Source of the DNA: a virus | Reading direction: 5' to 3' (one strand) | Virus record (IMG/VR): IMGVR_UViG_3300034105_001572 | Location: 1 to 31,136 of that record | Length of the DNA: 31,136 bases | Shown: positions 8,637-25,752 of the stretch, piece after piece | How positions within the stretch are numbered: the stretch's first letter is position 1 | How the letters are laid out: every line of letters starts with the position of its first letter | Position numbers and translations under genes: made by a program | Notes under the pieces: model-generated | What the model was told of the DNA's origin: nothing | Database searches by the model: none | The model's input: only the letters and a program-made list of their open reading frames with translations

Positions 8637-8886
8637 ATTTATCAAAGACTGTGAAAGATATGAATCAGTGATAGCCACCATGCCAGAGGGCAATGTAAAA
8701 AATGAAACTGTGCAATTGTTGCAAAAGTTATCTTATAGCATTAAAAAACTTGATAACATGCATCTAGAAATGATATACTCTAGACAGTTGCCAACTATGG
8801 GCAATGAGATGAAACAAGAAATATCAGATTTACGAAAAAAATTAGAAACTAGAATTAGAGACTGGTCGCAGACTCAGAAAAATTAA
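8608..8886 (+). CDS. Small helical protein of unknown function
   Basis: The product is 92 residues, rich in Lys, Glu, Leu and Met, with no membrane segment or cysteine motif beyond one Cys. The composition predicts mainly alpha helix. A heptad-like LRKKLETRIRDW end suggests a short coiled coil. The start follows a GGAG site (TTGGAGTTAGAAAATG), so the 29-nt overlap with the Nudix-like gene looks genuine. It ends 4 nt inside the convergent tail gene and no terminator separates them. I do not recognise the family. Position suggests a small tail or neck accessory protein, but that is weak. Confidence 0.55.
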   Translation: MSSILQKSTRFIKDCERYESVIATMPEGNVKNETVQLLQKLSYSIKKLDNMHLEMIYSRQLPTMGNEMKQEISDLRKKLETRIRDWSQTQKN

Positions 8887-9704: not shown

Positions 9705-9722
9705 TTTTTAATCTCTTTAAAA

Positions 9723-9730
9723 TATTTATC
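9723..9730 (-). promoter_or_regulatory. Candidate late promoter (GATAAATA) for the cupredoxin-domain tail gene
   Basis: Minus-strand GATAAATA lies 18 nt before the ATG at 9704 and overlaps the stop of the protease gene. The same 8-mer occurs before the gp13-like gene. The predicted start would fall next to the AAGAG ribosome site. Motif evidence only. Confidence 0.4.
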
Positions 9731-11759: not shown

Positions 11760-12806
11760 TTAATGCAGATCTACCCAAACACCTGCTGCTCGAACTTGTA
11801 GCTTATTGGTAGTTGTGTTATAGATAACATCGCCGTTGGCTGCTATCAAAAGATCTCTTTCCCCAGATGTAAAAGACGCCATTTTCAAAGGGCTTGCAGT
11901 TATTTCTACACGGGTACCAGCTGTTAATTGTATTTCACTGTCTGAAAATAGTTCAGGAATACCAGATCCCTGACTTGAAAAATTGCCAGTTAGTACAATG
12001 TCTTTTACAGTTAATTGATTATTCACTGACAAATTCAATGCAACATCAACACTGTTATCTATCACAAGATTATTTTGCACAGTGACATCAGATTCAAAAA
12101 TCACCGCGGGCGTAAATATTATAGCGGAAGAATCCGAAGAGTCTATAGTGGTAACAGCAAAGGTAATATTGCCTGTAGAACCACCACCAATGATTGTGAT
12201 GTTGCCCGAGCCATCGGAGGTTGTAGTAATGCCGCCGGCTCCAGAGAATCGAACTATACTGCCTGATGTAACTGGGTTTAATGTAGAGTCGTCTGCTTCT
12301 ACATTTAATACAAATGTTGCGGCTGATACAGCTGAATTAACAAATGCTGTAGTGGCTAATCCTGCTGTGGCAGGCAGTGCTGCTACTGTGGAATTTACAT
12401 AAGATATTGTGGCTAAATTTGTAATATCAGGATACGGAGATACTGGTTGGATCCATTGACTGCTGGATCCGTCGTTAAAGTAAACATATAGTATACCAGT
12501 ATTAGTGTCTAACCACAAATTTCCGCTAGAAGGAGATACAGGTACACTGCTACCTACTGAAACTGTGGTATTTCCACCACCACTTACTCCTGCTAAATTA
12601 GCTTTGGAAAGAAAGTCTGAGTTAGTAACGTTAGTTAAATCTGCTTTTGCTAAACTTACGCCGCCGACTGTCGATCCGTTGTAAATTCTAAGAGTGTTAG
12701 CTGTTTGATCGTAAAAAACTTCGCCCCTCGATCCTGAATTTCTATTTAAAAATCCAGAATCTCTAGGAATTATTCTTACTGCATCGAATACGGGTATTTT
12801 GGCCAT
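11760..12806 (-). CDS. Short tail-fibre-like virion protein
   Basis: The product is 348 residues, begins MAKIPVFDAVRIIPRD, and is rich in Ser, Thr, Gly, Val and Asn. It contains two short aromatic modules, 'GEVFYDQTANTLRIYNGS' and 'SSGNLWLDTNTGILYVYFND', then repetitive beta-strand segments. A C-terminal 'NGDVIYNTTTNKLQVRAAGVWVDLH' resembles the end of phage fibre and tail-tip proteins. No chaperone or peptidase domain is visible. The start is 12 nt after the HldD-like gene, with no Shine-Dalgarno; an AATAAATA element ends 5 nt before the ATG, as in two other genes here. It probably belongs to the adhesin set that flanks the tailoring island. Its exact fibre position is unknown. Confidence 0.65.
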   Translation of the reverse strand: MAKIPVFDAVRIIPRDSGFLNRNSGSRGEVFYDQTANTLRIYNGSTVGGVSLAKADLTNVTNSDFLSKANLAGVSGGGNTTVSVGSSVPVSPSSGNLWLDTNTGILYVYFNDGSSSQWIQPVSPYPDITNLATISYVNSTVAALPATAGLATTAFVNSAVSAATFVLNVEADDSTLNPVTSGSIVRFSGAGGITTTSDGSGNITIIGGGSTGNITFAVTTIDSSDSSAIIFTPAVIFESDVTVQNNLVIDNSVDVALNLSVNNQLTVKDIVLTGNFSSQGSGIPELFSDSEIQLTAGTRVEITASPLKMASFTSGERDLLIAANGDVIYNTTTNKLQVRAAGVWVDLH

Positions 12807-12811
12807 ACTAT

Positions 12812-12819
12812 TATTTATT
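12812..12819 (-). promoter_or_regulatory. Candidate late promoter (AATAAATA) 5 nt before a fibre gene
   Basis: Minus-strand AATAAATA is followed by five bases and then the ATG at 12806, the same spacing as at 3581 and 5323. It overlaps the stop codon of the HldD-like gene. The implied transcript would begin at the ATG. Motif and spacing only. Confidence 0.3.
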
Positions 12820-13688
12820 TAAATGTAACGCATGTTTGATAGATACTTTATGTATTTTTCAATGCCTGCATTAATTTGAATAAAATTTTCAACATCTACT
12901 CCTGAACTGATTAGTAAATTAGTATCAGCAAGGGTGTTAATTTGATACTGATTTTTAAGATCAGCTGGCATATCTATGAATTTTTTTGTTCCTGACCCTG
13001 TATGATCTATTATTGTATCCGCAATAGTTTCAAAATCTACCCTATTACCAGAGCCTAGATCGTAAATTCCGGGTTGATAATTGTTATACATAAAATGGTA
13101 TATGGTCTTTGCCACGTCCTCTACCCATATAAAATCTCTAAAATAATTCTTACTGTTTTCAAATATTTTTATTTCTCCAGTCTTGTTGAGTTGCTCAAAC
13201 CAGTGTAGAATTGAAGAAGCCATTCTGCCCTTGTGATATTCATTGGGTCCGTATACATTAAACAGTCGAAGAATAACTCCGTCTATTTCATTCTCGCTGA
13301 GTAGTTTGCTAAACGCATATTGATTCATCGGGCCCTGACCATTACCATAAACGGCTGCACTAGAAGTAAAAATAAAAGGTATGTTGCGCTCTTTACAAAA
13401 TGCATTCCACTTTCTTGTTGAGTTAATATTTGAGGCATAAATTGAACTCCAATTTTTTTCTAAAGTGTTCGAATTAGCACCAATATGTATTACTCCGGTG
13501 ATATTTTCATTAATAAAGTCAACATCATCTATTGATAACAGCCTTTTATATTGTTTACCGATTAAATTTTTATATTGATTTTCATAAGGCAAATCATCAA
13601 CTATAAGAATATCAGTTATTTGTTGAGAATTTAAATATTCCAACACCACGCTGCCAATAAAGCCGCCCGCACCTGTTAATACTATCAT
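12819..13688 (-). CDS. hldD: NAD-dependent sugar epimerase, HldD-like (ADP-heptose 6-epimerase type)
   Basis: The product is 289 residues, an extended short-chain dehydrogenase. It has an N-terminal GAGGFIG nucleotide motif (6-12), SS at 109-110 and the catalytic Y124-x3-K128 (YAFSK). It also has RLFNVYGPNEYHKGRMASS, where the 'H-K-G-x-M-A-S' stretch is characteristic of HldD/RfaD. HldD converts ADP-D-glycero- to ADP-L-glycero-D-manno-heptose, the LPS inner-core donor. The start at 13688 gives an ATGA overlap with the upstream kinase stop; ten more in-frame codons upstream are unlikely to be used. The neighbouring kinase and adenylyltransferase supply the earlier steps, which supports HldD over a general epimerase. 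In a phage the product probably feeds the glycosyltransferase at 21724-22707. Confidence 0.75.
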   Translation of the reverse strand: MIVLTGAGGFIGSVVLEYLNSQQITDILIVDDLPYENQYKNLIGKQYKRLLSIDDVDFINENITGVIHIGANSNTLEKNWSSIYASNINSTRKWNAFCKERNIPFIFTSSAAVYGNGQGPMNQYAFSKLLSENEIDGVILRLFNVYGPNEYHKGRMASSILHWFEQLNKTGEIKIFENSKNYFRDFIWVEDVAKTIYHFMYNNYQPGIYDLGSGNRVDFETIADTIIDHTGSGTKKFIDMPADLKNQYQINTLADTNLLISSGVDVENFIQINAGIEKYIKYLSNMRYI

Positions 13689-14443
13689 AAAATTTCTTCT
13701 AATGTTGGAGCATAGCATCCAACGTGTTGAACTGTAACAGCGGCAGCTAGGTTTGCAAAATCCATTGCTCTTGTTATATTTTTAGTGTGTAGGTAATTGT
13801 AGGCTAGTGCAGCAAGAAAAGTATCTCCTGCACCTGTAACGTCTACTACCTCTACTTTTGGTGCCTTGGAACTATACTGCTGATGTATAGCATCTGCACC
13901 ACTAGGACCACGTGTAACAATAAGTCCACTGCATTCACTTTTAATTTTGCTATACTCTAGTTCATTAATTTTAACCCATGCTCCTTGAAAACGATCTAAG
14001 TCTGTTTTCTTTGTATCTACAAATACAGGAATTTTGGTTTTAATCAATTGTTCTATTAGCTCATAGCTAACGGTTCCTTTATTGTAATCACTAATTACAA
14101 TAGCATCGTAGTTGTCTAAATTGTAGTTAATTGTTGCCGGTGTAGAGATTACATCATTGTCAATTCTTACAATCTGTTGTTTACTTCTAATATCAATTAA
14201 TCTAGTCTTTGTACTGTTTTCTCCGTATACAGAATAAACTTTGCACCCTAGGGTTACTAGATTATTACAGACATTGCCGGCCATGCCGGGTCTGCTTTCT
14301 TCGTGACTAAATTTAAATACAGGAACTGGAGCTTCGGGACTAATACGATCAACAGTACCATATTGATATATGTCTGTACAATTATCCCCTATGAGTAATA
14401 TCTTGTATTGCTTTGGTTGTTGAGTATGGTTCAACTCTGTCAT
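13685..14443 (-). CDS. hldE1: PfkB-family heptose-7-phosphate kinase, HldE N-domain-like
   Basis: The product is 252 residues. VDRISPEAPVPVF (32-44) is the hallmark of the HldE/RfaE kinase domain. RPGMAGNVCNNL (51-62) lines the sugar site and DVTGAGDTF (201-209, catalytic D207) is the PfkB signature. The reaction is D-glycero-beta-D-manno-heptose 7-phosphate plus ATP to the 1,7-bisphosphate. In Escherichia coli this domain is about 320 residues and is fused in front of the adenylyltransferase. Here it is a shortened separate gene placed after it, and the first 62 nt overlap the adenylyltransferase gene in another frame. A stop in its own frame just before the ATG excludes a longer start. The shortening lies mostly between residues 70 and 110, so activity needs testing. 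Confidence 0.75.
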   Translation of the reverse strand: MTELNHTQQPKQYKILLIGDNCTDIYQYGTVDRISPEAPVPVFKFSHEESRPGMAGNVCNNLVTLGCKVYSVYGENSTKTRLIDIRSKQQIVRIDNDVISTPATINYNLDNYDAIVISDYNKGTVSYELIEQLIKTKIPVFVDTKKTDLDRFQGAWVKINELEYSKIKSECSGLIVTRGPSGADAIHQQYSSKAPKVEVVDVTGAGDTFLAALAYNYLHTKNITRAMDFANLAAAVTVQHVGCYAPTLEEIL

Positions 14444-14786
14444 AAAATTTTATCTCTTTACAATATTCTGCACCTATTATAGGTCTATCTCGATAGTCAC
14501 TGCCTTTGACCATTACATCGGGTTTAAAATCTTTGATTAGATCTATGAGTTCTTGATCAGTGTTAAAAATTTCTACTCGATCTACAAATTTCAATGCCGA
14601 TAATAAATTTAAACGATCGTATTGTGAATTTATCGGACGACTATTATCTTTCAACTGTTTTACTCTGATATCACTATCTATAGCTACAAGAACAAACGAA
14701 TTAGGATAACATCTTGCATATTCTAAAAGTTTTATATGTCCTAAGTGAACGATATCAAACGTTCCGTTTACAAAAATCTTAGTCAT
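14382..14786 (-). CDS. hldE2: Heptose-1-phosphate adenylyltransferase, HldE C-domain-like
   Basis: The product is 134 residues of the cytidylyltransferase-like fold. It starts MTKIFVNGTFDIVHLGHIKL with the HxGH nucleotide motif (14-17). It continues with the RPINSQYDR segment, VKGSDYRDRPIIGAE (the 'KGxDY...GaE' motif) and a C-terminal YSTTKAIQDI that matches the 'STT' substrate loop. HldE domain II uses ATP to activate heptose 1-phosphate to ADP-heptose. Glycerol-3-phosphate cytidylyltransferases share the fold, but the neighbouring HldE kinase and HldD genes favour the heptose assignment. Gene order is the reverse of the bacterial fusion. The 3' end overlaps the kinase gene by 62 nt and the 5' end overlaps the HAD gene by 8 nt. 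Confidence 0.75.
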   Translation of the reverse strand: MTKIFVNGTFDIVHLGHIKLLEYARCYPNSFVLVAIDSDIRVKQLKDNSRPINSQYDRLNLLSALKFVDRVEIFNTDQELIDLIKDFKPDVMVKGSDYRDRPIIGAEYCKEIKFYDRVEPYSTTKAIQDITHRG

Positions 14787-15264
14787 TTAATAATATATTT
14801 TGAATTTCTTCAAAGTTGTTTTTGTATAGTAAACCAATACCACCAACATTATTCCATTCGTGAATATTGCTGGTACGATCATCGATTAAAATATCGCCTG
14901 GTACGCAATGTGTGTGTTTGTCTTTGCTATACGGACCAAACATAACAGGAATATCTGGGTAGTGTTCTTGTATCCATAATACTTTATCATAAAAAGCCCA
15001 CGAAACGTCATTAGCTTTAGGAACCGCAGTCAAAAACAACAGTTGATATTTGTTCTTTTTGCAATATGTTTTACAAAACTCTACAATTAGATCAGCTTCT
15101 TTTGTTTTTTTTAAATTTCTATAAAGTCTAGGATTTTCTTTTAATACATTCCAATCCTCGTCATCCCATCGATCGTGAACAATCTGTTGTTTATTTAAAA
15201 TTTCGCTAGCATAACCGTTAAAGTCTGCTACAACACCGTCCATGTCTAAGTACAAAGTTGTCAT
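14779..15264 (-). CDS. HAD-superfamily phosphatase (nucleotidase-like)
   Basis: The product is 161 residues. The HAD motif I DMDGVVADF (D7, D9), motif II T79 (LLFLTAVPK), motif III lysine near 114-116 (PYSKDKH) and motif IV DILIDDRTSNIHEW (D128/D129) are all present. The overall pattern resembles 5'(3')-deoxyribonucleotidase-type phage proteins. Placed directly upstream of the heptose adenylyltransferase, it could instead replace GmhB, the heptose bisphosphate phosphatase missing from this cluster. The motifs do not decide between nucleotide and heptose bisphosphate. The ATG overlaps the stop of the cupin gene (TAATG), so the two are co-translated. Confidence 0.65.
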   Translation of the reverse strand: MTTLYLDMDGVVADFNGYASEILNKQQIVHDRWDDEDWNVLKENPRLYRNLKKTKEADLIVEFCKTYCKKNKYQLLFLTAVPKANDVSWAFYDKVLWIQEHYPDIPVMFGPYSKDKHTHCVPGDILIDDRTSNIHEWNNVGGIGLLYKNNFEEIQNILLND

Positions 15265-15623
15265 TATTGACTGTCTCCTGGAAATATTCTAAAATTATCT
15301 TCAACTGAATCTGGTGTACTGACTTCAAAAATACTAGAATTTTCTTCTAAAGATTCTACCTGATGGGGTAACATAGGCGGGTTATGCCATATGTCGCCTT
15401 GCTTTAGTATTTGTTCGGTTACATTTGTTGTGTTAGTATCTAATATTCTTAATTTAAAACTACCAGAATTAATAAACCAAGTTTCGTCTTTTTCTTTGTG
15501 AAGGTGCATAGAAAACTTTGATCCAACTTTTTCAAATACCATTATTTTTCCGCAATATTTGTCAGTAGTTGCCCAGATTAATTCGTGGCCCCAACCTTTC
15601 TTAACAAATCCCGTTAGTCTCAT
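15264..15623 (-). CDS. Small cupin protein, sugar-phosphate isomerase-like
   Basis: The product is 119 residues, a single cupin barrel. It has KKGWGHELIW, then HLHKEKDETWF with likely metal ligands H40, H42 and E47, and H87 in PPMLPHQVES. The 'WG-E...K...H-x-H...E-W-x-x-x-x-G' order resembles the cupin domain of type II phosphomannose isomerases and related small sugar-phosphate cupins. It sits at the head of the heptose genes and shares one base with the HAD gene. It could be an isomerase or epimerase that supplies the sugar precursor (no GmhA is seen), or another small metal-dependent tailoring enzyme. The substrate is unknown. Confidence 0.6.
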   Translation of the reverse strand: MRLTGFVKKGWGHELIWATTDKYCGKIMVFEKVGSKFSMHLHKEKDETWFINSGSFKLRILDTNTTNVTEQILKQGDIWHNPPMLPHQVESLEENSSIFEVSTPDSVEDNFRIFPGDSQ

Positions 15624-15642
15624 TTTAATTGCCTGTGTTTTG

Positions 15643-16272
15643 TTAACTATTAATAGTACTCACTCTTAAATTTCCCGATATAGAAATTCTAAAATCATCC
15701 GATGAATAAAACGGATAAACAGTGTGCATCATTTTTGCAGGGAACAATATCATTCGTCTTTCATACGATTGATCAGTTGGAATGCACCATGGTGCAATCT
15801 GGCCCAGTGTGTCTGTATAATGAAAAAGAAAACTACCAGGAACTTGAAACAGTTCCGGAACGTGTGGCGTATATTTTTTTTCTTCTTCTATAGTATACGG
15901 AATTTTTACATATATTACAAAACTAAAATCGCCAGAATGATTATGTAATGGATTAAACTCATGTTTTTTTTGAAAGTTGATCCAAGCACCGTCCATCGAT
16001 AAATTGTATTTTTCAGGAAGTTTAAATGATGGATATGCTATTTGATACTTTGCTGACATTTGCATTGCTAAAGTCTCAATAAGACTATGAGTTTTTTTTA
16101 TCAAATATTCGTGTTTAATGTGCCCAATTAATTTATCATTCATGGGCTGTGCCTGACTAAAATTTTTTTGTATCTCTAAAGCTTCATCTAAGATTGGAAA
16201 AAATTCGTCATCTGATAAATCACATCCCATAAAACCTACATTAGGAAAATTACAACTATATATATTATTCAT
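15643..16272 (-). CDS. 2-oxoglutarate/Fe(II) oxygenase-like protein (phage PF13759 type)
   Basis: The product is 209 residues. MDGAWINFQKKHEFNPLHNH (93-112) with SFVIYVKIP, and later FPAKMMHTVYPF (H183) and RISISGN (R195), match the phage '2OG-Fe(II) oxygenase family' layout. In that layout a W-x-N strand leads to the iron-binding His, then a distal His and a 2-oxoglutarate-binding Arg. The first ligand site reads His-Asn-His-x-Gly-Asp rather than a plain His-x-Asp, so the exact iron ligands are unclear. Members of this family are frequent in marine T4-like phages and their substrates are mostly unknown. The gene lies 10 nt after the sulfotransferase-hydroxylase fusion. Hydroxylation of an amino acid, peptide or sugar is likely. 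Confidence 0.7.
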   Translation of the reverse strand: MNNIYSCNFPNVGFMGCDLSDDEFFPILDEALEIQKNFSQAQPMNDKLIGHIKHEYLIKKTHSLIETLAMQMSAKYQIAYPSFKLPEKYNLSMDGAWINFQKKHEFNPLHNHSGDFSFVIYVKIPYTIEEEKKYTPHVPELFQVPGSFLFHYTDTLGQIAPWCIPTDQSYERRMILFPAKMMHTVYPFYSSDDFRISISGNLRVSTINS

Positions 16273-16282
16273 AATGTATTTC

Positions 16283-17542
16283 TTAATCTATAACAGAAAT
16301 CCAGTCAACTATCAAATGTATTCTATCTTGGTTGCTGTTATTTTTAACACTATGAATCTTATTGGTATTATTGATCTCCCATATTTCACCAACTTTCATA
16401 TGCATTAGTTCATCCCCAACTCTAAACTCACATTGATCATTTGTAATAAGTGGAATATGCATTCTATGACAAGCATCTAAACTACTGCCAGAATCTATAT
16501 GTTCTGGTATAACACTATTAGCTGTTAAGTTTACCAAAATTGCCCTGGTTATATACCCAAACCCTAATTTTTCTTCAAAGATTGCAGTCAATACTTTTAT
16601 CTCATCGGTAAAACGTTCAAAACTGGGATGGTAATTTACATTTTCTGATTCGAAATCTTTACTAAAAATTAAAGGAATGGTCAGCGTTTTTGCATGAACA
16701 TCAAAAGTTTCTTGTCTAAATGTAAATTCTTTCCAGACGGTTTTATCAATATCTGCTAATTTATTTTTTAAATTTTCTACATTTAAACTAGATATAAATT
16801 TAAAATTAAAATTTTCTGATTCAATTAGTTTATATCCGCACTCAGACAACACCGGCATTTTTTTAGAAAATACAGAATTTATAATTTTTAATTGTTTGTC
16901 CGATAATTTTTTAATTTGAAACTCGTTCATATTTAAAATTTTCGAAGAGTATCCTTTGGTATTAAAAATTCTATTATTATCTATTCTAGTAATGTTTAAA
17001 TATTCTTCTATCTGTTTAACAATTTCAGTAGTATTATTTGTTAGATCTTCATATGTAAAAACTAAATCATTTAAATATTTTTCACTATGTTCGAGTTGTA
17101 TTTCTAAACATCTAATTGCATGAGTGGCTGCATCTATTAGAGAAGCGGCTGGGTTTGCACGTAAGATGCTTTCAACCATAGCGTATGGATTCCTAATCAT
17201 TATTATGAACTTGGTATCTTCAAACTCTTCAGCCAACATATCAGCTCGTAGTATATCGGGAGGACTTTTTTGTAAAAATACAGTTGCGTTGGGATTTGAA
17301 TTAGTCCAATGAAAATCCCATTGGCGTTTAATTATTTCCCACTCATAATTTTTTTTGTTTCTAAATATATCTTCTTTTTTAGTAAAAAAATGAGAAACGC
17401 CATACTGGTAAGCAAGTGGTCCAACAAAATTTTCGCAAAACTGTCCTTCGCCTGGTAAAATTGCAACATCGGGGGAGGTTGCAATTAAATCATGTAATAT
17501 AGAACTGCCGCTGTTATTGGGAACTAATAGAAATAAATGCAT
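16283..17542 (-). CDS. Sulfotransferase fused to aspartyl/asparaginyl beta-hydroxylase-like domain
   Basis: The product is 419 residues in two parts. Residues 1-235 form a sulfotransferase: the 5'-phosphosulfate loop is PNNSGSSIL (8-16) and the 3'-phosphate site is KFIIMIRNPYAMVESIL (111-127). Residues 255-419 resemble the aspartyl/asparaginyl beta-hydroxylase family: PEHIDSGSSLDACHRMHIPL with iron ligands H348 and D350, GEIWEINNTNKIHSV with H397, and R407 for 2-oxoglutarate. The sulfotransferase would use PAPS and the second domain 2-oxoglutarate and Fe(II). The fusion implies hydroxylation and sulfation of the same substrate, perhaps sulfation of the new hydroxyl. The first 29 nt overlap the preceding oxygenase gene. 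The loop Pro-Asn-Asn-Ser-Gly-Ser-Ser departs from the usual P-R-T/S-G-T/S. Confidence 0.72.
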   Translation of the reverse strand: MHLFLLVPNNSGSSILHDLIATSPDVAILPGEGQFCENFVGPLAYQYGVSHFFTKKEDIFRNKKNYEWEIIKRQWDFHWTNSNPNATVFLQKSPPDILRADMLAEEFEDTKFIIMIRNPYAMVESILRANPAASLIDAATHAIRCLEIQLEHSEKYLNDLVFTYEDLTNNTTEIVKQIEEYLNITRIDNNRIFNTKGYSSKILNMNEFQIKKLSDKQLKIINSVFSKKMPVLSECGYKLIESENFNFKFISSLNVENLKNKLADIDKTVWKEFTFRQETFDVHAKTLTIPLIFSKDFESENVNYHPSFERFTDEIKVLTAIFEEKLGFGYITRAILVNLTANSVIPEHIDSGSSLDACHRMHIPLITNDQCEFRVGDELMHMKVGEIWEINNTNKIHSVKNNSNQDRIHLIVDWISVID

Positions 17543-18092
17543 TTTTGTAATCCTCTAAATTGTCAAAATTCCAACCCATACTTAAATTAACTCTACTGTC
17601 AGTGGATAGTATTGTAGTTCCGTGAGCAGTATGCGACGGACTAAATGCCCAACCATCTCCTGGTAAAATCTTGTAAAGTAATCCATCTATAATTGGATTG
17701 CCACTAAACTCTGGTTTTTCCATAATTAAATTAATTCTTAGATGAAACGGACCGTAATCGTCCTTGTGTCGTTGTATGTAACTTGGTGCAAGATTATAAG
17801 TAATAATATTTCCAATCTTGGTATCAGGAATACCGTTGTGCTGATTAAATATTTCGTTAAATGCTGTAACAATGTCATTAATAGGTTCGAATTTGTTGTC
17901 TAATATTCGATAACGCCATCGATTATCTCCTGCCATATTTTTTGACATTTTACCTTCTTCAAATAATGTGCGAGAATATGTTGCAATTTGATTGCAAGAT
18001 TCTGCTGGCACAATATTTTTAAAAACGACTACGTTTTGAAGTATGTCTGAAAATTTCTGGATAGAATAGTTTGTAAAATTCAATGTTGTCAT
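17514..18092 (-). CDS. 2-oxoglutarate/Fe(II) oxygenase, AlkB/prolyl-hydroxylase-like
   Basis: The product is 192 residues. The iron triad is visible as H109-x-D111 (IQRHKDD) and H157 (SHTAHGTT), with R167 (DSRVNLSMGW) as the 2-oxoglutarate anchor. GDGWAFSPSHTAHGT is typical of double-stranded beta-helix dioxygenases. The start overlaps the upstream sulfotransferase by 74 nt. The next Met is at residue 49 in this frame, which would remove a strand that looks genuine (NVVVFKNIVPAESC), so the long overlap is kept. The substrate is unknown. The alternation with sulfotransferase genes suggests that a hydroxylated intermediate is sulfated. Confidence 0.7.
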   Translation of the reverse strand: MTTLNFTNYSIQKFSDILQNVVVFKNIVPAESCNQIATYSRTLFEEGKMSKNMAGDNRWRYRILDNKFEPINDIVTAFNEIFNQHNGIPDTKIGNIITYNLAPSYIQRHKDDYGPFHLRINLIMEKPEFSGNPIIDGLLYKILPGDGWAFSPSHTAHGTTILSTDSRVNLSMGWNFDNLEDYKNAFISISSQ

Positions 18093-18879
18093 CTATGATC
18101 CCTTGATTATGTTCGCCCAAGACTGAATAGTCCGGTTCTCGATATGTAATTTCTTTACCTACCGTATGATCAACATAGGCCCAATATGCCGAGTCATATT
18201 CTTTTATTTTATGATTTAAGTTAGTAAAGTCATGTTGAAAATGATCATAACCTAACGAATTATATAATGATGTTATTGTGGCCGTTGGATCTTTGGTGAG
18301 ATCCTCGTAGCGCATAACAATAAAGTCGTTAGGATTTTTTTTATAAAGATCGTAGAACTTTGAAAAATATGGTAAGCAAACGCCAAGAGCACTTAATGGA
18401 TTTTTAAGCCAAAATTCTACTCTATCTCTTTGATTTAATCGATGCGGTGTAAGGCTTTGATATTCAGGAAGTGAATATCTCAGATAAGGAAATTCGGGTA
18501 ATAATTTTTCAAAACTTAATACAACTCCGCGTAAGTCCCTAATACAAAAAATAAATTTTGAGTTCGGATATAAAGTTTTTAATTCGTCATAAAACATTAT
18601 CCACGGTCTACCTTTGCTGAATACTATAGGTTTGTCAGTTTCAGCTTCGTGCCATCCTCGGATTGCTCCTCCAGCCATTCCGTAAAAACGTTTTTTTAAA
18701 TTTTTATGATCCGTAGATGCAAAATCTGTCTGCGGTCCCATATTTTTAATTATAGATTCTAATATACTCGGAACTGGAGTAGTTCCTGTAGCATAAAAAT
18801 TTGGATTTTGGTCAAGAACTGCGGTTAATGTTGTAGATCCAGTTCTTGGAAGTCCTACAATAAAATGAATATCTTTCAT
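18019..18879 (-). CDS. Sulfotransferase
   Basis: The product is 286 residues from ATG 18879, which overlaps the upstream stop as ATGA; 13 further in-frame codons lie upstream and are less likely to be used. The 5'-phosphosulfate loop is LPRTGSTTL (10-18). The 3'-phosphate site is KFIFCIRDLRGVVLSF (108-123), and MRYEDLTKDPTATI is the conserved downstream stretch. The family transfers sulfate from PAPS to hydroxyls or amines of glycans, peptides or small molecules; PAPS must come from the host. Length and motifs fit soluble bacterial and phage sulfotransferases with no membrane anchor. Its C-terminal 24 codons overlap the next oxygenase gene. Confidence 0.8.
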   Translation of the reverse strand: MKDIHFIVGLPRTGSTTLTAVLDQNPNFYATGTTPVPSILESIIKNMGPQTDFASTDHKNLKKRFYGMAGGAIRGWHEAETDKPIVFSKGRPWIMFYDELKTLYPNSKFIFCIRDLRGVVLSFEKLLPEFPYLRYSLPEYQSLTPHRLNQRDRVEFWLKNPLSALGVCLPYFSKFYDLYKKNPNDFIVMRYEDLTKDPTATITSLYNSLGYDHFQHDFTNLNHKIKEYDSAYWAYVDHTVGKEITYREPDYSVLGEHNQGIIDDNIEFYKLFYPEIFRHTSKRSRF

Positions 18880-19490
18880 CTCAATGGTCTCCCTTTTATC
18901 CAAGTAACCAGCGCCCATCTTTCGCCTTGTGTAACTGGTAACACTTCATGAAATGCCAATGACGGAAACAATACAACTTGTCCTTGCTCTTTTGGTAGTG
19001 TAATGTCAGTTCTAAGATATAATACTAAATCTCCGCCTGAAAACTCAGATGGGTCTGACAATAATGCAGTGTATGATATTTTCCGTGTGGTAAAATTTCC
19101 ACCAAAGTCGCTGTGTTTATTGTAATGACTTTGAATACTTGAAGCTGCATCAAATTTATATTGCAATAATTCTATTGTTTCAATAAGACTAACATCAAGA
19201 TTCCAAAAATCTTTGTTAGCCGACAGTAATGTGTTACATACCTTGGTATATATCCAGGAAAATTTTTCGTTATTTGGCAAGAGCCATCGATTAACTTTTC
19301 GAAACGATTCGTCAATCGTCTGATCTTCTGAATTAATTTGTGCCGGGACAAGTTCTAAACTGTTGCTTGCTTGTTTTATTTCTTCGCATTCAGACGATGT
19401 CCACATAAATTCTCTAGCAGTTTCGGGACTGTCCCTATTGATTAGTAGATAATCTATCCATTGTTGATAAGCATTATCAATATAGAGCAT
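18876..19490 (-). CDS. 2-oxoglutarate/Fe(II) oxygenase, prolyl-4-hydroxylase (P4Hc) type
   Basis: The product is 204 residues. H126-x-D128 (YNKHSDFGG), H181 (LAFHEVLPV) and R191 (GERWALVTW) form a complete facial triad plus 2-oxoglutarate site. SGGDLVLYL and GQVVLFPS are the classic P4Hc/PiuC-like strands. This is the clearest canonical dioxygenase of the island. Relatives hydroxylate protein prolines or act on small molecules. The ATG shares one base with the carbamoyltransferase stop (TAATG), and the end shares ATGA with the sulfotransferase, so the three are translationally linked. A protein-hydroxylase role fits with the adjacent adhesin block, but this is not proven. Confidence 0.8.
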   Translation of the reverse strand: MLYIDNAYQQWIDYLLINRDSPETAREFMWTSSECEEIKQASNSLELVPAQINSEDQTIDESFRKVNRWLLPNNEKFSWIYTKVCNTLLSANKDFWNLDVSLIETIELLQYKFDAASSIQSHYNKHSDFGGNFTTRKISYTALLSDPSEFSGGDLVLYLRTDITLPKEQGQVVLFPSLAFHEVLPVTQGERWALVTWIKGRPLR

Positions 19491-21187
19491 TATTTTTTTT
19501 CCAGCAATAAAGAAACTTCAGGTAGGTACAAGTATTTTAAATCACTTTTTCTTAAAGTGCTTAATGCATCATCAATAGTTTCTACTAGTGGATCTCCGCC
19601 TAGATTAAAACTGGTATTAAACAAGATTGGTACATTGCTTAATTTATTAAATTCTTGAATTAACTTGTAGTAATGAGGATTCTGTTTTTCTGTAACAGTT
19701 TGAACTCTGCAAGTGTCATCCACGTGAGTGATAGACGGCACAACACCTAACTTTTCTTTTTTTACATCTACTGCATACATCATAAACGGACTTTCTTCCA
19801 TTCCCGCCATATCAAACCATTCGTGTACATTTTCTTTTAGTACAGTACCTGCAAATGGTCTAAACCACTCACGACGTTTAACTTGATTAACAATGTCTTT
19901 GCCGTTAGGCACAGTAGGATCAAACAAAATGCTTCGATTTCCTAATGCACGTGGGCCAGCTTCGCTACCGCCTTGGAACATACAAACAATATTTTTATTT
20001 CTTATGAGACCAGCAATGTCTGCGTACGATACTGTAGTTGCTTTAAAATCATCTAATTCTATTAATTGATCAACATCAATAGTATATTTTGGCCCGTGAT
20101 ATATATTAGTCTGCGGATGTTTTACGTCATTTTGAAATTCTTTAAAATGTACAAGTCTCGCAGCACCGATCGATGTGCCGGCATCGTGACTAATAGGCTC
20201 CACATACAAGTTAACATCTGCCGGAAGATTTTTCTTATAGAAATAATTTGCTACACAATTTAAACCATATCCTCCTGCAATAACTACATTTTTATTGCCT
20301 GATAATTCAATTCCCTTTTTAATTAAATCAAGCACTGCTTGTTGTGTATCTAATTGCAATTTATAAGCAAGATTTTTTTGATTGATTAACGTAGGATCGG
20401 CAAGAAACTCGTAATTATTTGTATTAATATCTGCCGCTGAGGGAATAGTAGGAGTAATTAAATTGCGATTGCTTGCTCCGTTTGATAAGAAAAAATCTGG
20501 AATTCTATGATCTGCTTCACCATAAGGAGCAAGACCCATTGTTTTTCCAGCTTCAATGGCTGAAAATCCACAATATTGTGTTACAGCTTCATAACATTTT
20601 ACGATTCCTGGTTGATCGGCGATCCAGCACTCGGCAGTTTCAACGTTTTCTATCTTGATATGTTGTCTTGCTGTTCCGTAATTTGTTTGATAATTTTTGT
20701 AAAGTGGAGTAAAGTCGGTGGGATAGTTACAGTTAATAATTGATTCAGCTTCCCAAAAAGTAATTGGCATTCCTGTATTATTAGTACCGTCATACCTAGA
20801 TCCTGCACCGTCAACAATAACAGCAACAGCACTGTCAAACCCACTATTGTAAAATGCGCAGGCAGCATGCAATTGATGATGAATGTGTCCCATCAAATAT
20901 ACCGGAGTTTTGTGATCGATAAGATTGTGTTTTCTTAAAAGTTCTACATAGACATTATTCGAACACCAGTCTGATTGAGGAGCACTATTATCTGTGTGCG
21001 CGATGGCAACAGCATCGATTCGATCTGTAAATTTTTTAGTTTCTTCTAATGCTCTAAACGGAGTTCCGTCATGCTTAAATCGTGTTAATCTTTCTTCTTC
21101 TATATAAAATAATTGTTCGCCGTTTTTAAGCAGGCAAACACTACTGTTATGTCCTCTAGACATTCCTAAAATATAAGTATCTTTCAT
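19490..21187 (-). CDS. Carbamoyltransferase (NodU/TobZ-like)
   Basis: The product is 565 residues, close to the usual length. The N-terminal part has ILGMSRGHNSSVCLL and YIEEERLTRFKHD, the 'GHD/N-x-S' and 'EERxxRxKH' motifs. Next come GHIHHQLHAACAFY, VDGAGSRYDG and KTMGLAPYGEA, the Kae1-like carbamoyl-adenylate domain. The C-terminal YrdC-like part has GSEAGPRALGNRSILFDP, RREWFRPFAGTVL and ILFNTSFNLGGDPLVE. The family makes O-carbamate esters on sugars or antibiotics from carbamoyl phosphate and ATP. It follows the oxygenase gene upstream by one base and shares TAATG with the next. Carbamoyltransferases are recurrent in marine T4-like phages; a heptose or fibre-linked sugar is a reasonable acceptor here. 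Confidence 0.85.
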   Translation of the reverse strand: MKDTYILGMSRGHNSSVCLLKNGEQLFYIEEERLTRFKHDGTPFRALEETKKFTDRIDAVAIAHTDNSAPQSDWCSNNVYVELLRKHNLIDHKTPVYLMGHIHHQLHAACAFYNSGFDSAVAVIVDGAGSRYDGTNNTGMPITFWEAESIINCNYPTDFTPLYKNYQTNYGTARQHIKIENVETAECWIADQPGIVKCYEAVTQYCGFSAIEAGKTMGLAPYGEADHRIPDFFLSNGASNRNLITPTIPSAADINTNNYEFLADPTLINQKNLAYKLQLDTQQAVLDLIKKGIELSGNKNVVIAGGYGLNCVANYFYKKNLPADVNLYVEPISHDAGTSIGAARLVHFKEFQNDVKHPQTNIYHGPKYTIDVDQLIELDDFKATTVSYADIAGLIRNKNIVCMFQGGSEAGPRALGNRSILFDPTVPNGKDIVNQVKRREWFRPFAGTVLKENVHEWFDMAGMEESPFMMYAVDVKKEKLGVVPSITHVDDTCRVQTVTEKQNPHYYKLIQEFNKLSNVPILFNTSFNLGGDPLVETIDDALSTLRKSDLKYLYLPEVSLLLEKK

Positions 21188-21188
21188 T

Positions 21189-21719
21189 TTATTCTATTCT
21201 TCCTAACAAATTTAATTTAAGAGCACACGTTATTCTTAGCACATTATCGTTACTCGGAGGAGCCCCAAAGTGCTGATATTTACTAGGAAAGCATACTACT
21301 TTCCCTGGTTCAAAATTTATTTTTGCAATTTCTCCATCGGGCAATCTTATTTCAGTTTGGCCAGTTGGATCATTCCATGCTTTATTAACATAATACACGA
21401 GTGTGTATTTGTTGTCAATATCATAATCTCCAGAATAAAGGTCCACGTGCCAAGAGGTTTGCTGATCTTTAGTCTGCCCGTTTAACACACAGCTCAGCAT
21501 TTCGAACTGCATTTGATATTTTTTTGAAAACTTAGCTAAAATATATTCAGCAAAAAAATTATGAGGGCCGTCTTGTTCGTAAAGAGTTGATCCCCATATT
21601 AGATTATCTTTGTTTAATGCTGATTTTCTTCCGTAAAACCAAGGAACAGATTCAGTGCAATAATCATCAAACATTTCGACAAATGTTTCATCAAATAATT
21701 CGGTGTCAACTATATACAT
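21189..21719 (-). CDS. 2-oxoglutarate/Fe(II) oxygenase-like protein
   Basis: The product is 176 residues from ATG 21719. The frame is open 28 codons further but that part (RKKQPRIYYFRLL...) overlaps the glycosyltransferase and looks like a shadow, so it was excluded. Ligands: H91-x-D93 (SWHVDLYSGD), H150 (SKYQHFGAPP) and R162 (VLRITCALKLN); TLVYYVN and GKVVCFPS are core strands. The pattern resembles small phage 2OG-Fe(II) oxygenases of the P4Hc group. No Shine-Dalgarno is seen; the gene starts 4 nt after the glycosyltransferase stop, so reinitiation is likely. Substrate unknown. Confidence 0.7.
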   Translation of the reverse strand: MYIVDTELFDETFVEMFDDYCTESVPWFYGRKSALNKDNLIWGSTLYEQDGPHNFFAEYILAKFSKKYQMQFEMLSCVLNGQTKDQQTSWHVDLYSGDYDIDNKYTLVYYVNKAWNDPTGQTEIRLPDGEIAKINFEPGKVVCFPSKYQHFGAPPSNDNVLRITCALKLNLLGRIE

Positions 21720-21723
21720 TGTA

Positions 21724-22707
21724 TTAACAGCATGACGATTGCACCGGCTTCTCAGCAATTTGAGTAGGCGGAAGTAGTATATCCTTGGCTGTTTTTTTCT
21801 CAATATCTATTTGTATTTTTTGATACATACCGTTGATTTCGTCTTCACTGAAATCCATTATGGTATCGTTAGATCTATCGGCTAGATCAATATCTGGTAC
21901 AGAATCTGTTATACGTATTGGACTGTACATTTTTTCCTGATCCTTTTCTAAGATTTGGAAATGATTTTGATATGATACATTTTCTACAAATGTACTACCC
22001 ATAATAACAGTGCCTGGTTTGTTAAAACTTTTTGCCATGTGTTGACCGCTGCTATCGCAACCTATAAAATAATTACAAGTTTCAATCAGCGCCATATATG
22101 TTCTGATATTTAAATTAGCTGGTTTAAACGACCACTTGTCTTCGGCTACTGGAAATTCACTCATTACTATTACACAATAGTATTCGCTTAATCGTTTAGT
22201 TAATTCTAAATATAATTCTTTACTGAAACTTCTGCTAGATTTGTCATATAAGAATTCATTTTCGTAAGTTACACTTCTTCCGAACGGCTGTACCATTACT
22301 ACTTTATTTTTTCCTGAGGTTAACTTTGCTTGATTTATAATATTGGCAGCGTATACTTCTTCTTCTTTATTGAGATATAGATTAGGAAAGGATAAATCTG
22401 AATGGTCTGTGGTATTATTAATGATTTCGTCAAATGCTTCGATGAGGTGAGTTTTTTGATTGAAATAACTGTTAAGTCTATAAGGTTCAGGAGTAATAAT
22501 TTCGCAGTGTTTAAGCTGATCTTCAAATAAATTTTTTGTCCAAATCGGATAAGTTTTTCTATAGAGATACGGATGACCTTGAAAGGCCTCTACTGTGCCT
22601 TCTACCACAATAATAAAATCGTCAGTAGTGGCGTAAAGTTTTTCTAATGCCGGAATAGAACATATTTGTCTTCCTAACCCTCCATTAATAAAAATCGCTT
22701 TTTTCAT
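21724..22707 (-). CDS. Glycosyltransferase, GT9/heptosyltransferase-like
   Basis: The product is 327 residues. GGLGRQICSIPALEKL (9-24) resembles the N-terminal 'G-x-G-D...P-A-L' motif of family 9 heptosyltransferases. KVVMVQPFGRS is the mid-domain donor strand. CNYFIGCDSSGQHMAKSFNKPGTVIMGST matches the C-terminal 'IGxDSGxxHxAxAxxxPxVxxxGxT' signature (quoted here only as consensus). The family transfers heptose from ADP-heptose. The island also has the ADP-heptose genes, so this is the likely user of their product. No membrane segment is seen. A good GAGGAAA ribosome site precedes the ATG, suggesting a translation entry point for the operon. Acceptor (adhesin, LPS or small molecule) unknown. 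The Cys-Cys end is unusual. Confidence 0.7.
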   Translation of the reverse strand: MKKAIFINGGLGRQICSIPALEKLYATTDDFIIVVEGTVEAFQGHPYLYRKTYPIWTKNLFEDQLKHCEIITPEPYRLNSYFNQKTHLIEAFDEIINNTTDHSDLSFPNLYLNKEEEVYAANIINQAKLTSGKNKVVMVQPFGRSVTYENEFLYDKSSRSFSKELYLELTKRLSEYYCVIVMSEFPVAEDKWSFKPANLNIRTYMALIETCNYFIGCDSSGQHMAKSFNKPGTVIMGSTFVENVSYQNHFQILEKDQEKMYSPIRITDSVPDIDLADRSNDTIMDFSEDEINGMYQKIQIDIEKKTAKDILLPPTQIAEKPVQSSCC

Positions 22708-22743
22708 TGGTTTCCTCTATTAAACTATCTTATATTTATTTTG

Positions 22744-23925
22744 TTAATTTTGCAGTATGTTAGATTGTGAATGCAAATTTCTCAATTGTGCAAACTTGTC
22801 ATACAGCCCAAGATTATGTAAATTCTGATAAAATGAACTTAGATGCCAAGTACCAAAATCTTCATTTGATGCTAGCTTTGAATTATTCAATTTTGAAAAA
22901 TCTATCATTTCTATAAATTTTTTATTGTTCATAGCCTGTTTCATATTAGTTTCACCTTTGGACTTTGCAAATTTCCAAAAATTTGTGTCAAACTGTGATC
23001 CTGCAAAATAATGCAACATAATAACATTTTCTATTTCTGTTATGTGTTTATTATAATATTGATTGGCCACTGTTTGATCTAATTTGTTGAACCACACATC
23101 GTAAGCCAATCTGTTGATGTTGTCCATAAATGAAATCGATGTTGCCTCTAATGGTTCTAGAAAGAATGACGAGTTTCCATTGTATGCAGCTCGACCATCG
23201 AAATTATTTTTTTTATAATAATTTTGAAAACTGAACGAATTAGTATGATCACTGGGAGTTAATTTATAATCTTCAAAAATGTGTTTTACATCTTCTTTAA
23301 TCTCGTCCAACGAATTAATATTGTTGTTATACAAATAACCAATTGAGCATCGATTTTGCAAGGGAATACCAAAAACCCATCCATATGGTCTTGCAAGTGT
23401 TAAGGTGTACTGGAACTTGGCATAATCCCAATAGCATTGTGTTACATAAACTGAATTTACCGGAATAGACTCCGACATCGTATAATCGTTATAACTGTTA
23501 GGTTTTCCAGCACAATCTAGTATGTATTCACTGTCAATGTCTTTATGATCGATGTGATTTTCAATTATGCGTAATCTTGGGTTTCTAGAAATTGTTTTTA
23601 GAATGTGTTCTTGTAACTTTATTGCATTAAAGTGATAACCAACACCAGGTGGGGCAAAGTTATGGGTAAATTCGTTACCTGCTCCCCAACCTGTCTTTTT
23701 TATTCCGTATTTGAAACTGCCATCAATTATAGATAAATCTTGGTGTTGAAAATTTATTATTTGATGCAGTCTAGTGGGCAGTACAAGGGTTGAACCTTCG
23801 CCCACTGCTTGGGGTTTGATATTGTTATCATAATAAAAGTCTACGTAACAATCAGTATGATAGAGAAAATGAGCTGCCGAAATGCAACCAGCTGTTCCTC
23901 GTCCAATTATAGATATTTTTTGCAC
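22744..23925 (-). CDS. Flavin-dependent halogenase-like protein (tryptophan halogenase family)
   Basis: The product is 393 residues and starts at GTG 23925 (VQKISIIGRGTAG); an ATG two bases upstream is out of frame. GRGTAGCISAA (8-18) is the FAD motif and AVGEGSTLVLP (40-50) is the second family stretch. SFKYGIKKTGW (70-80) has K72 in the position of the active-site Lys of PrnA/RebH, and FFLEPLEATSI (254-264) is the conserved flavin/chloride region. The hallmark W-x-W-x-I-P is altered to WVFGIP (183-188). Family members chlorinate or brominate tryptophan using FADH2. At 393 residues it is shorter than the usual 500-550. Halogenase-like proteins are known from marine T4-like phages. It may halogenate, or be a related flavin monooxygenase. 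No flavin reductase gene is nearby. Confidence 0.7.
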   Translation of the reverse strand: MQKISIIGRGTAGCISAAHFLYHTDCYVDFYYDNNIKPQAVGEGSTLVLPTRLHQIINFQHQDLSIIDGSFKYGIKKTGWGAGNEFTHNFAPPGVGYHFNAIKLQEHILKTISRNPRLRIIENHIDHKDIDSEYILDCAGKPNSYNDYTMSESIPVNSVYVTQCYWDYAKFQYTLTLARPYGWVFGIPLQNRCSIGYLYNNNINSLDEIKEDVKHIFEDYKLTPSDHTNSFSFQNYYKKNNFDGRAAYNGNSSFFLEPLEATSISFMDNINRLAYDVWFNKLDQTVANQYYNKHITEIENVIMLHYFAGSQFDTNFWKFAKSKGETNMKQAMNNKKFIEMIDFSKLNNSKLASNEDFGTWHLSSFYQNLHNLGLYDKFAQLRNLHSQSNILQN

Positions 23926-23967: not shown

Positions 23968-24852
23968 TTAATACCAGATCATGACCAGACCTGGTCCGCC
24001 TGTTCCACCTTTGTTGCTGGTAGGATATCCCATAGCTGATCCAGCGCCGCCGCCACCTGGGCTAGTATTATTATTACCACACAAGCTACCTGTACAAAAA
24101 GCTGCCACAACACCTGCTTGAGGTGCTTGAAATCCGCCAAATGTTGGCGGTCCTATCGCAATTGCGTATGCATACATTCTGCCACTACAAAATTTATGAC
24201 AGGCACAAACTGCATCTGAAAATGAACACTGGCCGCATAAATTTAAACTGCCGCCGAGACCATTGCCAGGTGCGCCGCTGCCTCGACCGTAATTGTCCAT
24301 ATTGCATCTTCCGCCTTGTCCCGGATACGCTCTTATTGCTATACTTCTAGCTGCATTGCACACGTGACTTCTTTCACCAGCAAATCCATAACGATAACAA
24401 CATCCTCTACAGCCGCCTCTTCCTGCTTGTATGCACAAGATGTCTCCGGGCTGCACTGAAAAACTTCCATGAGTATATCCAGCTGACCCTCCAGTTTCAG
24501 ACGTGCGTTTACAAACTGGGCCGCCACCTCCGCCGCCGCCTCCCCATACTTGAGCAAATATTCTATTTACTCCTGATGGAACAGTCCAATTACAGCTAAT
24601 TGTGCAACTATGACTGTAAGCGCCAGCACCAGGAACTTGTCCCGCTACCACAGTTAACACGCTTACTCCATTAGTAGGACTACTGCCACTTCCGGTACCT
24701 AATAAATCTGCTTGACTTTTGGTAGCAACGGCATTACCTGCTGGTGTGGCTGAGGTGCTGATAACACCGGTAGTTGACCCGCCTGTGGTAAAAACTGGTG
24801 CCCTATTTAATATAGCATTGCTTTCTGTAAAACCTGATAAAAAACGTGACAT
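23968..24852 (-). CDS. Glycine/cysteine-rich tail adhesin, copy 3
   Basis: The product is 294 residues. It starts MSRFLSGFTES, shares the core NWTVPSGVNRIFAQVWGGGG with two upstream paralogues, and ends in GTGGPGLVMIWY. Glycine runs dominate, with about 16 cysteines (for example GCRGCC and CGQCSF). The W-x-VP-x-GV-x-x-x-x-x-QVWG-x-GGG pattern is the glycine-rich domain found in phage tail adhesins. T4-like adhesins such as gp38 use polyglycine helices as a sandwich for receptor-binding loops, and a similar build is likely here. A GGGG ribosome site precedes the start and the halogenase gene follows after 42 nt. Receptor binding is inferred from composition and context. Confidence 0.7.
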   Translation of the reverse strand: MSRFLSGFTESNAILNRAPVFTTGGSTTGVISTSATPAGNAVATKSQADLLGTGSGSSPTNGVSVLTVVAGQVPGAGAYSHSCTISCNWTVPSGVNRIFAQVWGGGGGGGGPVCKRTSETGGSAGYTHGSFSVQPGDILCIQAGRGGCRGCCYRYGFAGERSHVCNAARSIAIRAYPGQGGRCNMDNYGRGSGAPGNGLGGSLNLCGQCSFSDAVCACHKFCSGRMYAYAIAIGPPTFGGFQAPQAGVVAAFCTGSLCGNNNTSPGGGGAGSAMGYPTSNKGGTGGPGLVMIWY

Positions 24853-24861
24853 TTTTTCCCC

Positions 24862-25752
24862 TTAATACCAAACTACTACTGCACCGCCACCGCCTGAGGA
24901 TCCGCAGGCACAGCCGCCGCTATAGCCACCAGTTATACCTCCAAATCCACCACCGCCAAATGGCATACCACATCCGTGACCGCCTAGTTTAGCTCCCGGG
25001 CAACACAATTGATAGCATATATACAGATATCTTGTAGGAGCTCCTAAAAAAGAACCCCCTGCAAAAATCTGTGGAGTATAACAATTTGTATTGTTACATT
25101 TAGAAACACAGGATGCACAGCAACTGTTTTGCAGTGCATCACCGCCTTGAACTATAAGATCGCCGCCTTGGCCGCAACCGCCACAGCCGTTTCGACCGCC
25201 GTATATATTACTGCTACACAGTCCGCCGCAGCCTCCACAAGCAATTAAACAATGACTGGCTCCTGATGTTGGCCCCCAGAATACTGAATGACATCCAGTT
25301 TGTCCTTGTTTACCGCTAGGGTAGCAACCTCCCTGTCCACCATGGCCTGCACAATAGCAAAATACCTGTCCAGCTGATACTGGAATCGACTTGTGTACAT
25401 AACCTCCGCCGCCACCGGGCCCACCAACTTTCCAATTACAATTCATTGCGCCGCCGCCGCCGGCACCCCAAACCTGTGCAAAAATATTTGTAACTCCGGT
25501 GGGCACTGTGAATGTGCCTGCACATTGATTACCACTGTCTCCACCAGCTACCCACGTACAGGCCAGTGAATTTCCTGGCAATGGCAATGTAAGTACTAGT
25601 GCATCAACATAACCTTTTGTAACTAGATCAGTTGATGCTGCAGGTGTTCCTGTTTGTAGAATTTCACCTGTAGCGGTTGCTCCGGTATTAGCTATTCCGT
25701 TAACTAGATCAGTGCCGGGACGCATGTTTCTACCTGATACAAATCTGCTCAT
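24862..25752 (-). CDS. Glycine/cysteine-rich tail adhesin, copy 2
   Basis: The product is 296 residues, begins MSRFVSGRNMRPG, and contains FTVPTGVTNIFAQVWGAGGGG and a C-terminal SSGGGGAVVVWY. More than 20 cysteines are concentrated after residue 100, many in CGGCGG, CC and CxC clusters. The N-terminal 60 residues (TPAASTDLVTKGYVDALV) resemble a fibre-attachment region like that of copy 3 (TPAGNAVATKSQADLL). The GC-rich glycine codons stand out from the AT-rich surroundings. It lies 9 nt before copy 3 and 4 nt after copy 1. Its variable loops probably decide host specificity; the cysteines may form disulfides once the particle is outside the cell. Confidence 0.7.
   Translation of the reverse strand: MSRFVSGRNMRPGTDLVNGIANTGATATGEILQTGTPAASTDLVTKGYVDALVLTLPLPGNSLACTWVAGGDSGNQCAGTFTVPTGVTNIFAQVWGAGGGGAMNCNWKVGGPGGGGGYVHKSIPVSAGQVFCYCAGHGGQGGCYPSGKQGQTGCHSVFWGPTSGASHCLIACGGCGGLCSSNIYGGRNGCGGCGQGGDLIVQGGDALQNSCCASCVSKCNNTNCYTPQIFAGGSFLGAPTRYLYICYQLCCPGAKLGGHGCGMPFGGGGFGGITGGYSGGCACGSSGGGGAVVVWY

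Follow-up and report, generated by a model that had tools for sequence, protein, structure and literature searches.

Phage glycosyltransferase and carbamoyltransferase genes are paired with cysteine-rich adhesins in a putative adhesin-tailoring locus

Introduction

TibC heptosylates autotransporter adhesins from ADP-heptose (PMC4358343). For cyanophages, Sullivan and colleagues placed T4-GC 304, 305, 307 and 308 among seven lipopolysaccharide (LPS) genes that co-occur in P-SSM2, S-SM2 and S-SSM7, and left the function of the LPS genes open, with 'stuffer DNA' among the options (PMC3037559). A review repeated the idea that such LPS genes change the host surface (PMC2984593), and pelagiphage work inferred the same for the glycosyltransferases of a host-recognition cluster (PMC7029224). 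The cyanophage halogenase VirX1 iodinates small aromatics (PMC8407142).

Here we analyzed a 31,136-nt record of a marine phage (IMG/VR IMGVR_UViG_3300034105_001572; a 31-kb fragment, hereafter the window) in which 14 contiguous minus-strand open reading frames (ORFs) fill positions 12819-23925, each junction overlapping or at most 36 nt long. An original prediction from the sequence alone had described this one-strand, 14-gene island with fibre genes on both sides (28507..31080 and 11760..12806), and both points held. The new observation is that the core of the island, a GT9-like glycosyltransferase and a carbamoyltransferase, is paired with a Cys-rich form of poly-glycine adhesin; no paper making this link was found in the openly available literature, subscription journals being mostly outside the search. 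We consider it probable (roughly 0.6) that the locus is a phage adhesin-tailoring cassette: core enzymes would glycosylate the adhesins of the phage itself and carbamoylate them, and accessory enzymes would elaborate the product.

The core enzymes track adhesin cysteine content

The GT9-like heptosyltransferase-fold glycosyltransferase lies at 21724..22707 (minus strand, as for all window features below; phrog_8954) and the O-carbamoyltransferase (TobZ/NodU-type) at 19490..21187 (PF16861 5e-59, PF02543 2e-22), with both domains present and His/Asp motifs aligned with those of TobZ. Transcriptionally upstream of the island are three Gly-rich adhesins, the proposed substrates, at 23968..24852, 24862..25752 and 25757..26668, with 5.4, 8.1 and 8.3% cysteine, respectively; core-adjacent adhesins of other lineages mostly have 8-12%. 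Adhesin 1 matched the Gly_rich_2 family (PF21722) above cut-off (5e-7), adhesin 2 just under it and adhesin 3 more weakly, and a predicted structure of adhesin 2, of only fair confidence (predicted local distance difference test, pLDDT, 67), matched the cyanophage Pam3 fibre (7ypx, 7e-7).

A GT9-like profile scan of 2.9 million viral contigs (IMG/VR) gave at least 477 relatives, of which 80 were kept. Among these, every locus with at least 4 kb of upstream and 9 kb of downstream DNA held a carbamoyltransferase (31/31) and Cys-rich adhesins (31/31). A reverse scan used the adhesin motif CCCxWTVP alone, with no enzyme in the selection; both core enzymes were present in all 28 loci with at least 6 kb downstream, and the GT9-like gene in 41 of 42 with at least 4 kb downstream. 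Loci found with a Cys-blind motif (TVP, ten residues, WG[AG]G) were joined to the CCCxWTVP set, giving 193 loci in which adhesin cysteine content was bimodal (below 3% in 74, 6% or more in 119, none between). With at least 6 kb downstream, the GT9-like gene or the carbamoyltransferase was found in 46/46 Cys-rich loci versus 0/19 Cys-poor loci, counts that include related phages and so are not independent samples, and for which part of the Cys-rich set came from a Cys-based motif, neither selection having used the enzymes. Counted by cluster, the pairing was 17/17 versus 0/19 at 60% identity and 5/5 versus 0/12 at 40% identity. Six fibre regions of core-less cyanophages and pelagiphage HTVC008M contained no Cys-rich adhesin, the Gly-rich adhesin of HTVC008M having 33% glycine and 0 cysteine.

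A gp13 tree placed core-bearing phages on two very distant backbones. The tree needs at least two changes and its starred branches force only one, so that the tree alone forces no more than one change; to judge by it, descent from a single origin may be the sole reason for the pairing. Odd and even cysteine counts among the adhesins (37/32) favour neither the presence nor the absence of disulfides. A correlation between halogenase presence and adhesin tryptophan content was weakly positive (3.3 vs 2.7%, p 6e-5); it was lineage-confounded and was not used.

Conserved core and variable accessory genes

Comparison of gene content across loci separates core genes from accessories that differ between lineages. 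To the core belong the GT9-like gene, the O-carbamoyltransferase, the HldE kinase and adenylyltransferase halves, HldD, a cupin and, in most cases, a HAD phosphatase; the halogenase, five 2-oxoglutarate (2OG) oxygenases and two sulfotransferases are accessory. The prediction had read all 14 genes as one pathway and proposed searching related genomes for co-conservation, with independent variation of the genes as evidence against it. The core is widely co-conserved, whereas halogenase, sulfotransferase, oxygenase and SGNH-type genes come and go among loci; the 14-gene set was therefore rejected as a unit.

The isolated cyanophages P-SSM2, S-SSM7, S-CAM1, S-CAM3 and Sf-FS3 share one gene order: adhesins, GT9-like gene, carbamoyltransferase, HldE halves, short HAD, cupin, epimerase on the opposite strand, and tail/neck genes. 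In S-SSM7 the set is extended by 2OG genes, a halogenase and another carbamoyltransferase, and in the single-cell virus AG-345-O18 by a sulfotransferase; among the 80 GT9-anchored loci, halogenase and sulfotransferase occurred together only in the window lineage. The prediction knew of no described phage system with this whole set. Parts of it have cyanophage counterparts: T4-GC 304, 305, 307 and 308, which are the heptose genes and the cupin, had already been noted as co-occurring LPS genes (PMC3037559), and in S-SSM7 a halogenase, 2OG genes and carbamoyltransferases accompany the heptose genes.

A sister lineage (sheath about 51% identical) carries the GT9-like, SGNH-like and carbamoyltransferase genes on the fibre strand and the cupin, HldD and a fused HldE just beyond on the opposite strand; heptose genes thus accompany the core pair though place and strand differ between this lineage and that of the window. 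The SGNH-like protein, regularly between the GT9-like gene and the carbamoyltransferase in the sister lineage (8180-9085 in contig L011, 9173-9991 in L017), begins with FTFGCSxT and had no real Pfam match. The phage locus was also seen in contigs of GTDB metagenome-assembled genomes filed as Rhodobacteraceae, Euryarchaeota, Neomarinimicrobiota and Flavobacteriales (L354-L360), most likely as viral contamination.

Of four near contigs, three preserve the order of the island genes over the part that they cover: the first has all 14 genes complete, the second has all 14 except that the end of the contig truncates the halogenase, and the third begins within the carbamoyltransferase. The fourth spans the adhesins and reaches into the beginning of the halogenase. 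Isolated phages gave no near-identity match to the island. The ORFs are intact, and the ratio of nonsynonymous to synonymous divergence (dN/dS) was about 0.04-0.14 for almost all enzyme genes, with the HAD and halogenase genes of a very close pair as outliers; purifying selection was seen on all genes compared. Gene order and purifying selection together argue that the island is not a product of chance, and the low dN/dS indicates selection for function and rejects the stuffer-DNA option. Synonymous divergence (dS) from contig L008 ranged along the island from 0.01 (cupin) to 1.2 (oxygenase 18876-19490), an unevenness that indicates a recombination mosaic in which accessory genes seem to have been exchanged. 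The adhesins are the fastest-evolving genes (68-85% identity versus 86-99% for the enzymes of the same pair).

The heptose donor module and the GT9-like enzyme

Gene families were assigned by Pfam, NCBIfam and PHROG scans. The heptose module consists of a small cupin of the T4-GC307 family (15264..15623; PF07883 7e-7, phrog_7851 3.5e-38), an NT5C-type HAD phosphatase that is a probable GmhB stand-in (14779..15264; PF06941 1e-10, phrog_2643), the HldE adenylyltransferase half (14382..14786; TIGR02199 8e-32), a short HldE kinase half (13685..14443; TIGR02198 2e-48) and an HldD-like ADP-heptose 6-epimerase (12819..13718; TIGR02197 2e-67) whose best solved matches were HldD structures (1eq2/2x6t, 3e-43). 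The predicted HldE halves and HldD were clear best matches, yet all three scored below the NCBI equivalog cut-offs. Five genes would cover the five ADP-heptose steps, provided that the cupin, 64-70% identical in 10 sister contigs, replaces GmhA. Two database labels concern these families: T4-GC307 is labelled 'cysteine dioxygenase' and is a small sugar-type cupin, and T4-GC306 (phrog_1238; contig L041 17312-17656 and relatives) is labelled 'phosphoheptose isomerase' in cyanophages, begins with DIDGT and matches phosphatases of the HAD type from capsule biosynthesis (TIGR01689, 1e-8, under the cut-off), so that its label is likely a misannotation.

Against PF01075 the GT9-like protein scored below threshold (E 0.024; 14.4 bits versus a gathering cut-off of 22). 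Its AlphaFold2 model (pLDDT 89), searched with Foldseek, best matched WaaF (1psw, 1e-11, TM about 0.54), followed by WaaC and TibC; the predicted GT9-like assignment thus stands on fold and falls short on sequence score. As modelled, the protein is a GT-B fold nearest WaaC/WaaF. The part of the prediction that places a heptose-type donor module and such an enzyme among adhesin genes is supported. Profile alignments (hhalign) aligned the donor-site stretch around a conserved DS...H with WaaF/WaaC and did not cover the N-terminal GGxGR segment, which is invariant (Arg in 53/53 GT9-like sequences). The GT9-like sequences share no invariant cysteine and hence no four-cysteine iron finger of the bacterial autotransporter heptosyltransferase (BAHT) type; on sequence and model, the protein is not a BAHT member. 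Separately, a GT9-like gene of 29% identity precedes a large tail protein gene in Vibrio phage K479 (contig L046 7875-8726) and about 30 relatives, a group with neither carbamoyltransferase nor Cys-rich adhesin.

Accessory enzymes and flanking genes

The flavin-dependent, tryptophan-type halogenase (22744..23925; PF04820 E 1e-29) keeps GRGTAG, FKxGIK (as FKYGIK) and EPLEAT, has GWxWxIP altered to GWVFGIP, and is 46% identical to a hypothetical protein of cyanophage S-RIM4. Four of the five predicted 2OG domains had Pfam support: the oxygenases at 18876..19490 (PF13640 7e-14) and 15643..16272 (PF13759 6e-11), the Asp/Asn-hydroxylase-type domain fused to a sulfotransferase at 16283..17542 (PF13469 2e-11, PF05118 5e-16), and the oxygenase at 21189..21719 (PF13640 2e-6; HVD), whose TTG-started ORF extends to 21803, is barely above the Pfam cut-off over that length and likelier begins at an ATG near 21719. 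The fifth, a probable 2OG-type oxygenase at 17514..18092 (phrog_13746, function unknown), had no Pfam match above chance, only its HxD...H pattern (HKD...H) pointing to the family. A second sulfotransferase domain, at 18019..18918, has a PRTGST loop (PF13469 1.5e-17). Family scans thus bear out the predicted halogenase, carbamoyltransferase, two sulfotransferase domains, cupin and HAD phosphatase. Contig L101 carries a sulfotransferase gene (8690-9385) and an Asp/Asn-hydroxylase-type gene (9382-9945) with a 4-nt overlap, directly after a Cys-rich adhesin; that the two are separate there and fused in the window is a sign of joint action. HTVC008M, which has no core, has a run of four 2OG/phytanoyl-type oxygenase genes between its fibres and neck genes, encoded on the opposite strand (L051 37443-39682).

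Upstream of the adhesins the block includes a tail-assembly-chaperone-like protein (26668..27228; PF16778 7e-7) and the fibre protein at 28507..31080, kept ahead of the locus in sister contigs. Downstream are the fibre-like protein at 11760..12806, assigned by family scan and comparison with sister contigs, and a subtilase-family protein within the fibre block (9729-11756); P-SSM2 likewise has a PF00082 protein near its fibres. A fibre protein with a cupredoxin-like C-terminus (C..H..M pattern, a possible copper site) lies at 8883-9704 and, in sister contig L017, at 12519-14225 (the L017 protein matched PF13473 at 5e-6, that of the window only PF00127 at E 0.08). A very long tail sheath (3-3473, at least 1157 aa) runs to the window end and is nearest those of the jumbo myophages Atu_ph07 and Phosso, so that the T4-like label of the prediction applies in a broad sense only.

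GC content drops at the island (33 vs 43%). A recent foreign origin was rejected because third-position GC differs only mildly (20-30 in enzymes, 26-34 in structural genes), and amino-acid make-up therefore accounts for much of the drop.

Proposed function and alternatives

From the observed gene identities, co-conservation, Cys-rich adhesin pairing, fold matches and purifying selection we infer the following acceptor, sugar, linkage, chemistry, order of steps and benefit. The cupin, HldE kinase, HAD, HldE adenylyltransferase and HldD-like epimerase would supply an ADP-heptose-type donor. In the infected cell, the GT9/TibC-fold transferase would attach the sugar to the neighbouring Cys-rich poly-glycine receptor-binding adhesins, and the carbamoyltransferase would cap it. 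In the window lineage, the sugar or side chains of the adhesin would further receive hydroxyl groups from the oxygenases, sulfate from the sulfotransferases and possibly halogen from the halogenase. Assembly of the decorated adhesins on the tail would follow, with changed receptor binding, stability or decoy resistance. Doubtful as yet is the wider proposal that many marine T4-like and jumbo phages share a modular system in which their own adhesins receive a carbamoylated heptose, possibly S-linked to cysteines, and then lineage-specific sulfation, hydroxylation or halogenation, so that the host-recognition tip would wear a chemical coat that varies. On this proposal, transfer to a thiol might account for the change in the catalytic segment of the GT9-like enzyme.

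Several observations weigh against adhesin tailoring. Of 65 GT9-like loci with upstream DNA of 4 kb or more, four had no Cys-rich adhesin in the available DNA, and only five Cys-rich clusters are left at 40% identity. No SIS isomerase (GmhA) was found in ten locus-carrying contigs, some fragmentary and one of 246 kb. The GT9-like model begins at a Rossmann strand, without the N-terminal barrel of TibC, and the invariant Arg lies in the glycine-rich N-terminal segment, a region outside the profile alignments in which WaaC and other canonical enzymes have the catalytic Asp. Heptose genes of S-SM2, S-T4 and Sf-CH8 lie in LPS-type clusters, away from fibres, and pelagiphage host-recognition regions also hold glycosyltransferases that are thought to act on host LPS (PMC7029224).

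The prediction had offered three targets: phage adhesins, the host envelope or a secreted product. The main rival to adhesin tailoring, which we hold to be unlikely, is that the enzymes alter the host envelope (LPS or another surface glycan) while the phage infects, for instance as a barrier to superinfection, with the Cys-rich adhesin recognizing the matching modified or unmodified surface. The known occurrence of heptose and carbamoyl groups in LPS and Nod factors counts for this explanation, as do the published proposals for the P-SSM2 LPS genes (PMC2984593) and the pelagiphage glycosyltransferases (PMC7029224). The LPS-type clusters named above speak for it too and indicate that the module serves more than one output, but they are distant from fibre genes and have no GT9-like match. 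A host-surface target, moreover, does not predict a pairing that tracks adhesin cysteine content rather than adhesins generally, and the closest folds include a protein heptosyltransferase; because of the pairing, adhesins are the favoured target. The secreted product, a halogenated, sulfated and carbamoylated small molecule made in infection, is very improbable: natural-product clusters typically contain enzymes such as the halogenase, the carbamoyltransferase and the oxygenases, and VirX1 acts on small aromatics (PMC8407142), but Pfam family scans found no nonribosomal peptide synthetase, polyketide synthase, terpene or ribosomally synthesized and post-translationally modified peptide scaffold enzyme and no exporter in the island, and adhesins are its constant neighbours.

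It is also improbable that the genes were merely swapped in as a block, without joint function, at recombination-prone fibre regions, the Cys-rich adhesins being a separate trait, for instance disulfide- or metal-stabilized. The coming and going of the accessories and the mosaic dS fit such hitchhiking. Against it, the GT9-like gene, carbamoyltransferase and Cys-rich adhesin are kept on both distant backbones and through rearranged gene order, with near-zero exceptions where enough DNA is available, and purifying selection acts on every gene compared.

If adhesin tailoring is right, host recognition by ocean phages depends on phage-encoded adhesin chemistry besides adhesin sequence, cyanophage genes that have long been classed as 'LPS genes' or 'stuffer' gain a concrete role, and scattered phage halogenases, sulfotransferases and 2OG oxygenases are parts of one exchangeable decoration module. 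Adhesin decoration is testable on cultured phages such as S-CAM1 or P-SSM2.

Comparison with described systems

TibC/AAH (BAHT) and the phage protein share the heptosyltransferase GT-B fold (TibC 4rap was among the top matches), ADP-heptose-type donor genes and an adhesin as proposed acceptor; identity is only about 10%, and the phage acceptor is putative. WaaF/WaaC are the best fold matches, with the donor-site stretch around DS...H aligned, whereas the phage protein is below the Pfam GT9 cut-off, has the invariant GGxGR and has constant carbamoyltransferase and phage adhesin partners. The adhesins resemble other poly-glycine adhesins (Pam3 fibre; S16/T2 gp38 type) in Gly_rich_2 family, predicted fold and position beside tail fibres, but the core-linked form has 6-12% cysteine and core-less relatives have below 3%. 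The window halogenase matches VirX1 of cyanophage Syn10 (6qgm) and belongs to the same tryptophan-halogenase family; it differs in length (393 versus 531 residues), in its altered WxWxIP motif and in sitting inside a putative adhesin-tailoring locus. The cyanophage T4-GC 302-308 locus (P-SSM2, S-SSM7, S-CAM1, S-CAM3) has the same core genes in nearly the same order and the same place, between Cys-rich adhesins and further tail/neck genes. The window departs from it in that its epimerase shares the strand of the other genes rather than lying on the opposite one, in its NT5C-type HAD, five 2OG and two sulfotransferase domains, and in a backbone that resembles jumbo myophages and not cyanophages.

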